Part shown: positions 2,896-27,189 of the stretch, piece after piece
How positions within the stretch are numbered: position 1 is the stretch's first letter
How the letters are laid out: each line of letters opens with the position of its first letter
Notes under the pieces: model-generated
The model's input: only the letters and a program-made list of their open reading frames with translations
Told to the model about the DNA's origin: nothing
The model's database searches: none
NCBI GenBank assembly: GCA_903908535.1
Contig: CAIVSE010000009.1
Coordinates: 1 to 32,851 of the forward strand
Direction of reading: 5' to 3'
DNA: 32,851 nt
From: Candidatus Doudnabacteria bacterium
GTDB taxonomy: Bacteria; Patescibacteriota; Doudnabacteria; UBA920
Made by a program: the position numbers and the translations under genes

Positions 2896-2979
2896 TGCGG
2901 TTTATCCCCCTTCGTCCCGACAAGTCGTGACTACGGAGGACAGGCGATACCGCTGCTCTACCAGATGAGCTAAGCCGGC
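2896..2979 (-). pseudogene. Broken tRNA gene: 5' half (acceptor strand, D-arm, anticodon stem) split in the anticodon loop by a 40-bp palindromic element; T-arm and 3' acceptor absent
   Basis: Plus strand TGCGGTTTA-[40 bp]-CGATACCGCTGCTCTACC against TGCGGTTTACGATACCGCTGCTCTACC in the intact neighbouring tRNA. Confidence 0.75.
2905..2944 (-). repeat. Palindromic element copy A: CCTGTCCTCCGTAGTCACGACTTGTCGGGACGAAGGGGGA
   Basis: Shares CCTGTCC, CGTAG and CGAAG core with copies at 16046-16075 and 26914-26944. Confidence 0.75.
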
Positions 2980-2984
2980 GCAAT

Positions 2985-4097
2985 TTAGAGATAATACTTT
3001 TTGATGAGCGGGTTCAGGCGCGTAACAATTTCGTAACAGCTGGTGTTGGCCAATTTACCGAGTTCGTCAGCTGTGACTTCTTCCTTACCCTGCTTACCTA
3101 TTAACACAACTTCATCCCCGACCTTGACATTTTTTACGGCGGTGACGTCTACAACCACCATATCCATACTGACTCTCCCAATCAGTTTACAGCGCTGACC
3201 TTTTACCAAGACTTCAGCTTTAGACGAAAACGCGCGCCAATAGCCGTGCCAGTAGCCAATAGGCAAAACGGCCAGCTTCGTGGTCTTTATGACCGTTTCA
3301 GTATAATCATAGCCTACTTTCTGGCCTTTATCAACCGTTTTAACCTCGGAAATAATGGTTTTCCAGGTTAACACCGGCTTAAGTTCAATATCTTTATGTA
3401 ATTTTCTGGTTTCGTCCGAAGGCCACAGCCCATACATGCCTATTCCTACCCTGACCAAATCAAAATTGGCTTCGGGGTAATTTAAAATTCCGGCTGTGGC
3501 CGAAGCATGGGCCAGCGCCTGCGGATATACAGCTTTAACCATTGCTACCGCATCTTTAAATTTTACAATCTGCTTTTCCGTCTCGTGACTACTGTCCGGC
3601 CGCTTGGCTGACGCAAAATGCGTAAACACGCCGGCAACTTTTATTTGCGGGAGTTTCTTAATTATAAATAAGACTTTTTGCAGGTCGGAAACAAAAAACC
3701 CCTGCCGGTGCATGCCGGTATCTATTTTTAAGTGGATTACAATCGTTTTTTTTTGCGTAGCCAAAAAATTTAAACTTTCAAAAGTGGAAACAGCCAGGGA
3801 AATATTTTTGCTGTGGGCATCTTTAAAATTGGCCGGCAGAGTATAGCCTAAAACCAAAATGGGCAGTGAAATGCCGTGGCGTCTTAAGGCCACAGCTTCG
3901 GTAATGCTGTCCACGCCCAAAAAATTTGCGCTTAATTTTTGCATTTCCGCGGTAAAACCAAAAAGCCCGTGGCCGTAAGCATTAGACTTAACAACGCCAA
4001 GGAGCTTTACGGGCTTTGGCAACAATTTGCGGAAAATCCGGTAATTGTGTTTTATGGCGGAACTGGATATTTCTATCCAGGTGCGGTATTGGTTCAT
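2985..4097 (-). CDS. alr: Alanine racemase
   Basis: PLP motif GVVKSNAYGHG, C-terminal GRVSMDMVVVDVT. Confidence 0.95.
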   Translation of the reverse strand: MNQYRTWIEISSSAIKHNYRIFRKLLPKPVKLLGVVKSNAYGHGLFGFTAEMQKLSANFLGVDSITEAVALRRHGISLPILVLGYTLPANFKDAHSKNISLAVSTFESLNFLATQKKTIVIHLKIDTGMHRQGFFVSDLQKVLFIIKKLPQIKVAGVFTHFASAKRPDSSHETEKQIVKFKDAVAMVKAVYPQALAHASATAGILNYPEANFDLVRVGIGMYGLWPSDETRKLHKDIELKPVLTWKTIISEVKTVDKGQKVGYDYTETVIKTTKLAVLPIGYWHGYWRAFSSKAEVLVKGQRCKLIGRVSMDMVVVDVTAVKNVKVGDEVVLIGKQGKEEVTADELGKLANTSCYEIVTRLNPLIKKYYL

Positions 4098-16033: not shown

Positions 16034-17362
16034 TCAGATTTTTTCTTGTCCGCCGTAGCCTTTGGCGAAGGCGGAAAACTGCTCTCCCCTGTCCTTATAA
16101 TTCTTAAATATGCCAAAACTGGCGCAGGCCGGGGACAGCAAAACTACATCCCCTGCCGTTGCGATTGGTTTTATTTGCGCGAAAATTTCCGCCATATTTT
16201 TAGCGCCTCGCAATACTCGGCCGCCGAACTTCCCGTTTAAAGATTGTTCTATCCTGCCGGCTTCCTGGCCAATCAGTATTAAAACCCTGATATTTTTAGT
16301 TTGTACAATGGTTGCGCCCAAAGCTGTAAAGTCGGAATTCTTGGATGACCCGCCTAAAATTATAATCTCCGGTTCGGTAAAGGCCCTTATAGCCGCGGCG
16401 GCGGTTTCCGGCGTGGTGGAAAAGGAATCGTTATAATATTTTACGCCATTTTTTTCCGCCACAAATTCCAGGCGGTGGGTTAAACCTTTAAACTCATACA
16501 CAGCCTTTTCAATCGTAGCCTCGTCAATACTCAAAATTTTTGCCACGGCCACAGCAGCTTTAATGTTTTCCAAATTATGAGCACCCTTTAACTGGATTTT
16601 AAAGTGGTCAAAAGCCGTTTCCGTATTCATATTTGTGCCAATCGGAATTTTTTGCCCGTCTCCTAATTCTCCAATTTGCTTGGAAGCCTCATAATCTTTG
16701 TTATAAACAGTAAAATCGGCGCGCGTCTGGAATTTTGCAATAGCTTCCTTAGCCTGCCGGTATTCTTCCACGTCTTTATGGTAATCCAAATGCTCGGAAG
16801 TTACCATTAAGACCACGCCAATGTGGGGGCTTTTGGTTAAGTCCTGCAATTGGAAACTGGAGAGTTCATAAACAATAAAATCCTGCTTGGCCAGTCCATC
16901 TAAAATTTCCAACGGCTGGGTCTCGCCAATGTTGCCAACTAGGTAGGCTGATTTTCCCACCTGCTTGAGAATATTAAAAATCAAGGTGCAGGTTGTGCCT
17001 TTGCCTTTTGTCCCGGTAACGCCGATTATCGGCGCCGGGCAATGCTCAAAAAACCATTTGGTCTGACTGGTAATAACAGCTCCGGGCGTAACCGCTTTTT
17101 GGACGTCCGAAAGTTTTATGCCCGGGCTGCGGAATACAACATTAAAGCCTTTTAACTCCTTTAGATAATCCGGCCCAAAAATAAAATTGACCTTTAGGCT
17201 TTTTATGTATTCCTGCTCTTCCAAAGGCCAGTCCTGCCACGGACGCGCGTCAAACAACACGGGATTTAAACCGTGTTTAAGTAAATAATTAGCAGTCGCC
17301 TTCCCTTCCAGCCCAAACCCCAGCACCGCGACCATTTTTCCCTGCAAATCTGCAATATCCAT
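16034..17362 (-). CDS. murD: UDP-N-acetylmuramoylalanine--D-glutamate ligase
   Basis: GVTGTKGKGTTCTLI P-loop, YNDSFSTTPETAAAAI, LSPACASFGIFKNYKDRGEQF. Confidence 0.95.
   Translation of the reverse strand: MDIADLQGKMVAVLGFGLEGKATANYLLKHGLNPVLFDARPWQDWPLEEQEYIKSLKVNFIFGPDYLKELKGFNVVFRSPGIKLSDVQKAVTPGAVITSQTKWFFEHCPAPIIGVTGTKGKGTTCTLIFNILKQVGKSAYLVGNIGETQPLEILDGLAKQDFIVYELSSFQLQDLTKSPHIGVVLMVTSEHLDYHKDVEEYRQAKEAIAKFQTRADFTVYNKDYEASKQIGELGDGQKIPIGTNMNTETAFDHFKIQLKGAHNLENIKAAVAVAKILSIDEATIEKAVYEFKGLTHRLEFVAEKNGVKYYNDSFSTTPETAAAAIRAFTEPEIIILGGSSKNSDFTALGATIVQTKNIRVLILIGQEAGRIEQSLNGKFGGRVLRGAKNMAEIFAQIKPIATAGDVVLLSPACASFGIFKNYKDRGEQFSAFAKGYGGQEKI
16046..16075 (+). repeat. Palindromic element copy B: TTGTCCGCCGTAGCCTTTGGCGAAGGCGGA, overlapping the last codons of murD
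   Basis: Shared CGTAG...CGAAG core and TCCGC/GCGGA stem. Confidence 0.8.
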
Positions 17363-26865: not shown

Positions 26866-27189
26866 TTATTCCGAGTGCTCATGACCCTCATGCTTTGGAT
26901 GGTCGTGGTCTTGCCTGTCCGACGTAGCATTTTGCGAAGTCGGATGCTTGGCTTCTTCCAGCTTTTTAATTTCGTCATTGATTTTTTGGCTGTATTCTTT
27001 TAACTTGGCGTCGCCGTTAACCATAAGTTCCGCAATTTCTTTGGGATCCTGTTTGGTCAGCATGGCTAAAGCCATGGCCACGGTGGAAGTGGACCACAAA
27101 CCTTTTTCCATTTGGTTGTGGGCCATGACCAGCTCGTACAACATTTTTTCGGTTTTGGTGGGTTCCTTTTGCTTAAAATCGTTTGCCAT
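26866..27189 (-). CDS. Hypothetical 107-aa protein with His-rich C-terminal tail (DHDHPKHEGHEHSE)
   Basis: SD AAGGA upstream; compact helical N-terminal part; terminator follows. Confidence 0.65.
   Translation of the reverse strand: MANDFKQKEPTKTEKMLYELVMAHNQMEKGLWSTSTVAMALAMLTKQDPKEIAELMVNGDAKLKEYSQKINDEIKKLEEAKHPTSQNATSDRQDHDHPKHEGHEHSE
26914..26944 (+). repeat. Palindromic element copy C: CCTGTCCGACGTAGCATTTTGCGAAGTCGGA, inside the 26866 ORF
   Basis: Differs from copy B by paired compensatory changes (C-G to A-T twice). Confidence 0.8.

Follow-up and report, generated by a model that had tools for sequence, protein, structure and literature searches.

The window, that is, the whole stretch of 32,851 bp analyzed here from a Candidatus Doudnabacteria genome (G000), harbors on its minus strand, in this order, an alanine racemase gene (2985-4097; Pfam PF01168 and PF00842), the 5′ half of an older tRNA-Thr(CGU) (2945-2979), a 40-bp CYTG-tagged hairpin (2905-2944), nine further tRNA bases (2896-2904), a 22-bp spacer (2874-2895) and an intact tRNA-Thr(CGU) gene (2798-2873). 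The older half, GCCGGCTTAGCTCATCTGGTAGAGCAGCGGTATCG, extends from the 5′ strand of the acceptor to nucleotide 35 and is identical at 35/35 positions to the tRNA-Thr of G002, G017 and other relatives. Past the insertion, TAAACCGCA continues the tRNA from nucleotide 36 to 44; this right-hand match comprises nine bases (TGCGGTTTA), which agree with the empty-site tRNA described below. The original prediction of a tRNA-Thr split inside its anticodon loop by a 40-bp hairpin is borne out in both sequence and coordinates, and the intact gene lies where it was placed; the 25-bp spacing has to be corrected, as the relic is followed in the minus-strand sense by 22 bp and then by the intact tRNA.

The intact gene, the putative replacement, was called by ARAGORN and matched Rfam RF00005 with 69.4 bits. 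Positions 2839-2873 and 2945-2979 form a direct repeat of 86% identity, in which the acceptor strand reads GCCGGCT in the relic half versus GCCGAGA in the intact gene, and the relic is therefore no plain tandem copy of its neighbor. Close copies of the intact tRNA were found in G004 and G010 (97% and 99%, respectively), and remains of an older tRNA-Thr flank both of them. The missing 3′ end of the relic gave no match anywhere in the window with three mismatches allowed, and the relic matched no tRNA model even at E 10, in line with the earlier view of a relic rather than an intron-bearing tRNA.

No significant inverted-repeat arms were detected around the inner tRNA of the window (score 14, p about 0.2). 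The sequence CCGCACCAAT, lying across the edge of the spacer, bears a resemblance, and a resemblance only, to the arms of tRNA-carrying units in relatives; its motif gave five matches in the window genome versus 12 for the reversed pattern, which is not above background. A reading of TAAACCGC as a part of this arm, and not of the tRNA, was rejected for this reason and the tRNA reading was retained. Beyond the intact tRNA, positions 2700-2797 contain CCACGGG... and a GC-rich hairpin, a tail like those after other tRNAs of G000, and the post-tRNA sequences at L142, L151, L159 and L087 also begin with CCACGGG..., often ending in a CCCC/GGGG hairpin. Judged by its sequence, this stretch looks like a common tRNA 3′ tail or a further element.

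Empty site and insertion point

The comparison genomes are mostly draft bins, with G037 belonging to the same order as the window genome. The empty-site orthologue that the original prediction had proposed to look for was found in G002 and G017, where an intact tRNA-Thr(CGU) lies downstream of an alanine racemase orthologue (60% identity in G002, L038; 64% in G017, L028). The tRNA of G002 directly follows the alanine racemase gene, as in the window. More than 100 bases separate the two genes in G017, whose tRNA-Thr(CGU) is also bordered by arm-like sequences, CCCGTTAAATA...TATTTAAC, with a 3′ fragment further downstream; G002 thus provides the cleaner empty site. When the 5′ half from the window was joined to the 3′ half from G002, ARAGORN called a tRNA-Thr(cgt) in which the two halves meet at 35|36; therefore, exactly 40 bp were added between anticodon positions 35 and 36 and no base was removed or duplicated, just as had been claimed. 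The empty site in relatives likewise upholds the claim that no target-site duplication was made. This is a precise insertion, with an empty site and defined element ends, of a member of a repeat family.

A CYTG-tagged hairpin family

The 40-bp element consists of an unpaired CCTG tag, a stem of TCCTCC against GGGGGA, a 3 × 3 internal loop (GTA/GAA), an inner stem (GTC/GAC) and a tip hairpin. Its DNA fold taken alone is unremarkable in energy (z -1.28), and other copies reach z -4 to -5. Alignment of 11 copies from G000 revealed a covarying six-pair stem, the inner stem and an internal loop with GTA or GAA facing GAA (once GGA), and the covariation score of these 11 copies was reached by 0/500 shuffles. 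The covariance model R1 scored the copy in the tRNA relic at 37.8 bits and found at least 43 copies in G000, where 150 of the 308 candidates were scored, so the sequence is not unique; 48 copies were found in G002, 21 each in G010 and G037, and none in G054. The two further copies predicted in the window were recovered as well, with R1 matches at 2901-2944, 16045-16079 and 26914-26948. The third hairpin (26914-26944, plus strand) has a CCTG tag and scores 36.1 bits. The second (16045-16075, plus strand; 44.6 bits) has a CTTG tag and overlaps the final codons of a MurD-like ORF, whose 3′ coding end may thus derive in part from the repeat.

Across 35 copies, the CYTG just 5′ of the stem is conserved (C in 27, Y in 30, T in 25 and G in 32), and no comparable conservation was seen on the 3′ side of the stem in the same copies. 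The tag begins at the same base as the element ends CCTG...GGGGA proposed earlier, and conservation and the tRNA insertion thus give the 5′ end of the repeat independently. Such a one-sided conserved tag implies that recognition is strand-specific. The left flanks of the 35 copies vary, with no fixed target sequence seen. Five inverted neighboring pairs within about 70 bp were counted among 30 loci, some of which overlap. A GTAG or GAAG string is located inside the stem-loop and not as the tag.

In a tRNA-Thr(UGU) relic on contig C22 of the window genome, G35|T36 is again occupied by a hairpin, this one with a few additional bases to its left; the T-arm/T-loop of this relic carries a 19-bp version with the same ends, CCTGTCCTCCGAAGGGGGA, at which no target duplication was read by eye (L067). 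The REP-like copies at L242, L246, L249 and L253 of G002 have common flanks, such as GAGTGCATCCGA...AGCAATCT, and their sequences suggest a longer composite repeat in that genome.

REPs are defined, in the passages cited here, as tagged, irregular and dispersed palindromes with the published tags GTAG or CGTC (PMC3733652). As in the REP/TnpA_REP (RAYT) system of these passages (PMC3733652, PMC8266576), the present repeats are short imperfect palindromes, falling by fold and covariation within the usual 20-50 nt, with an irregular stem and a conserved unpaired tetranucleotide at one foot; they are dispersed in tens of copies per genome, and RAYT-type genes occur in G000. The inverted pairs may correspond to REP dimers (BIMEs or REPINs). 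They differ in that the tag is CYTG and not GTAG or CGTC, that no RAYT gene or cognate tnpA_REP adjoins a repeat in the stretches fetched around four Y1 genes, that the host belongs to Patescibacteria, of which the passages cited from the two papers make no mention, and that the insertion can be read to the base against an empty orthologue. A hairpin substrate without target duplication is also typical of IS200/IS605 transposition; unlike that system, the repeat here is a single hairpin without a gene, and its varying left flanks show no conserved target tetranucleotide and no insertion 3′ of a fixed short target.

The search for a Y1 transposase that had been suggested revealed four Y1 genes in G000, on contigs C26, C33 (two genes) and C36, two of them IS200-type above the NCBIfam cut-off and two matching the RAYT model below it (66.2 and 32.3 versus a cut-off of 80). 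The presence of such genes is in favor of the single-strand HUH/Y1 mobilization put forward in the original prediction. This mobilization is weakened by the stretches fetched around the four genes, which contain no repeat copy, so the link between Y1 and repeat is circumstantial, and by G003, G004, G031 and G037, which gave no Y1 hit although nested tRNAs occur there. Even in model systems, REP insertion by TnpA_REP is described as unproven in the passage cited (PMC8266576).

Nested tRNA genes in relatives

The interpretation given in the original prediction is partly supported as a whole. It missed a recurrent pattern, of which the relic is probably part, where tRNA genes are nested within older ones of the same isotype. 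An intact tRNA-Thr occupies the anticodon loop of an older one in G010, G012, G014, G031, G049, G003, G020 and others, mostly between inverted-repeat arms and in places several layers deep, and the same nested anatomy was observed in G010 and G037 for Ala, Pro, Val, Leu, Arg, Gln, Met and Ile. When 85,488 species genomes were scanned with one right-hand junction, six contigs were recovered, labelled Endomicrobiia, Kerfeldbacteria, Campbellbacteria, Doudnabacteria, Ignavibacteriae and one unclassified bacterium, each with an intact tRNA-Thr beside an older 3′ part; five of the six also show the older 5′ side or clear arms, and the Ignavibacteriae contig shows the 3′ side only. The spread to other phyla is provisional, since labels of metagenome bins are sometimes wrong. 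The right junction gave no hits in a viral collection, and 384 genomes of the phylum yielded 11 pattern matches, of which some are further nested cases and the rest chance hits in protein-coding sequence.

A census was made of 201 tRNAs from five genomes with intact neighbors masked, nested meaning a same-isotype 5′ part upstream or 3′ part downstream. The nested order was found in 34/201 and the reverse order in 8/201, some of the latter stemming from multilayer loci, counts that are descriptive because the score threshold (24) was chosen after the first cases had been seen. Among the five genomes, G010 (16/45) and G037 (7/31) had the largest nested shares, whereas that of G000 was low (2/39), and inverted-repeat arms at p 0.01 or better surround 14 tRNAs in G010 and eight in G037.

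The outer halves were joined in 17 reconstructions, a non-random set chosen for readable halves, from some of which later hairpins had been removed by hand beforehand. The anticodon of the inner tRNA was obtained from the joined halves in ten cases besides the window. Five of the 17 were not called as tRNA (L022, L048, L069 and L046, which are decayed or incomplete, and L057, which has no anticodon 5′ strand), and the rebuilt Ala had no valid anticodon. The anticodon-loop insertions that could be positioned, 7/7 in relatives and the one in the window, all lie at 35|36 and cover six anticodons: Thr(cgt) in G010, L059 and the window, Thr(tgt), Pro(cgg), Pro(tgg), Arg(tct) and Ile(gat). The bases flanking 35|36 differ (CG|T, TG|T, CG|G, TG|G, TC|T and GA|T), so position and not sequence seems to be recognized, which points to a folded target. 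D-loop junctions fall at 19|20, 21|22 and 22|23 by the ARAGORN count.

Several units have arms resembling a REP-like hairpin cut in two, such as CCTGCCCGCCATAGCC ... GGCGATGGCAGGCGGG around tRNA-Pro in G037; similar arms flank the Arg unit of G037 and the Thr units of G004, G014 and G020. Other units have CCCCGCACCA arms in common, and 7/7 exact copies of this motif in G010 adjoin tRNAs. The flanks of near-identical GCCGAGA-type tRNA-Thr genes vary among G010, G004 and the window. Hence, tRNA and arms are not always moved as one; the arms may bring the tRNA, or the tRNA may enter a hairpin already present. No detached tRNA copies were apparent among the tRNA matches of G010, and a search limited to open papers found no earlier description of nested same-isotype tRNA insertion.

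Two copies of CTTTGAATAACGAAACC flank the anticodon of a tRNA-Arg(CCG) relic in G010. This terminal repeat was rejected as a driver, being multicopy at contig ends of G010 (13 matches, mostly near such ends, e.g., C60:108-124 and C67:13350-13366) and probably an ordinary insertion sequence. At L087 (G020:C24, about 2935-3001), the 3′ part of a tRNA-Met continues, past the anticodon stem, into unrelated sequence with a short ORF, and an intact tRNA-Met with the same 5′ half comes next, a case of a larger insertion or duplication at a tRNA.

Islands and phages that enter tRNA genes by tyrosine recombinases also use tRNA loops as insertion sites and keep the tRNA function. In contrast, the units described here hold a complete tRNA inside a broken one and not a restored half, and the units read have arms of tens of base pairs with no integrase gene or room for one. 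A dedicated recombinase might nevertheless recognize the arms together with a same-isotype tRNA gene, so that each insertion replaces the gene that it breaks. Such homing cassettes would fit the isotypes, which match in every nested case read, the CCCCGCACCA copies of G010 with none away from tRNAs, the apparent lack of detached copies in that genome and the similar arms of the Pro, Arg and Thr units. We regard them as rather unlikely, since no enzyme or gene for them was found, the arms differ between units with nearly the same tRNA, and selection for rescue could equally give the isotype match.

Selection alone, with units inserting widely and an insertion into a tRNA gene surviving only where the unit supplies the same tRNA and takes over the promoter, would explain the isotype match by pure reasoning and without a homing enzyme. 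It is an unlikely account, for it predicts common detached intergenic units, none of which is apparent among the tRNA matches of G010, and nesting is not concentrated in wobble-redundant tRNAs (11/54 versus 23/147, p 0.52 pooled). Wobble redundancy was accordingly rejected as a cause, with a weak signal in G010 only (p 0.037) and none in the pooled data.

We consider it improbable that no transposase took part and that a structure-specific nuclease opened exposed single-strand hairpins, such as the anticodon arm or the REP palindrome, near the tip, a foreign hairpin or tRNA fragment being captured during repair. Such breaks would account for insertion at 35|36, close to the middle of the anticodon arm, irrespective of sequence and in six different anticodons (Thr CGU and UGU, Pro CGG and UGG, Arg UCU, Ile GAU), as well as for arms of tRNA units that look like halves of a REP-like hairpin, but the D-loop insertions at 19|20 and 21|22 are off-center, the conserved tag at one end implies strand-specific recognition, and capture alone leaves the isotype matching unexplained.

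It is hardly conceivable that the relic is still spliced as an intron-bearing or split tRNA: although its anticodon-loop hairpin is placed like some archaeal introns, the window contains neither its T-arm nor its 3′ acceptor strand, leaving no 3′ exon with which to form a tRNA, it matches no tRNA model, an intact tRNA with the same anticodon adjoins it, and outer halves elsewhere hold further D- and T-arm insertions. Archaeal tRNA introns and split tRNAs likewise show D-, anticodon- and T-loop hairpins without base loss, but they usually lie at 37/38 and not at 35/36, and the interrupted tRNAs here are dead and replaced and belong to a bacterial host. A tRNA-like gene of G000 that does look intron-interrupted at the anticodon lies at about 16606-16878 of L089 (G000:C54:16400-17051), where 5′ and 3′ parts matching the tRNA-Asn of G010 are separated by about 230 bp that look like a group I intron.

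Proposed history of the locus

Taking the evidence together, it is quite likely that a REP-like hairpin inserted precisely into an old tRNA-Thr and that the window locus is a degraded nested replacement. The 40-bp piece would be a non-autonomous, REP-like mobile hairpin made of an unpaired CYTG tag and an imperfect palindrome. The tRNA-Thr(CGU) of the family would originally have stood 3′ of alanine racemase, as in G002, until a second tRNA-Thr(CGU) arrived and made the old gene redundant; the older tRNA-Thr is considered dead because the second now lies beside it. The hairpin would have entered the old anticodon loop before or after this arrival, most likely as single-stranded DNA through an HUH enzyme (IS200/IS605 or TnpA_REP-like), a route and enzyme that we infer, and the old 3′ half and any arms would then have been lost from the locus. 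The new tRNA of relatives, which is often part of a unit flanked by inverted-repeat arms, appears to insert into a loop of the old same-isotype tRNA, and the window relic is best read, by analogy with them, as the outer shell of a replaced tRNA; nesting at the window rests on this analogy because the locus has neither significant arms nor an old 3′ half downstream.

More tentatively, it is possible that in Patescibacteria, and perhaps in other phyla, mobile hairpin units with a complete tRNA in their loop insert at fixed positions (35|36 and the D- and T-loops) of a same-isotype tRNA gene and take over its function, renewing tRNA genes in place like nested dolls. The tRNA relics are base-exact insertion scars whose empty sequence is known, so that ends, orientation and target can be read from them directly. 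The nesting suggests that copies of the same isotype overwrite essential tRNA genes time and again in these reduced genomes, which bears on tRNA evolution, on gene transfer in uncultured bacteria and on the annotation of tRNA pseudogenes.
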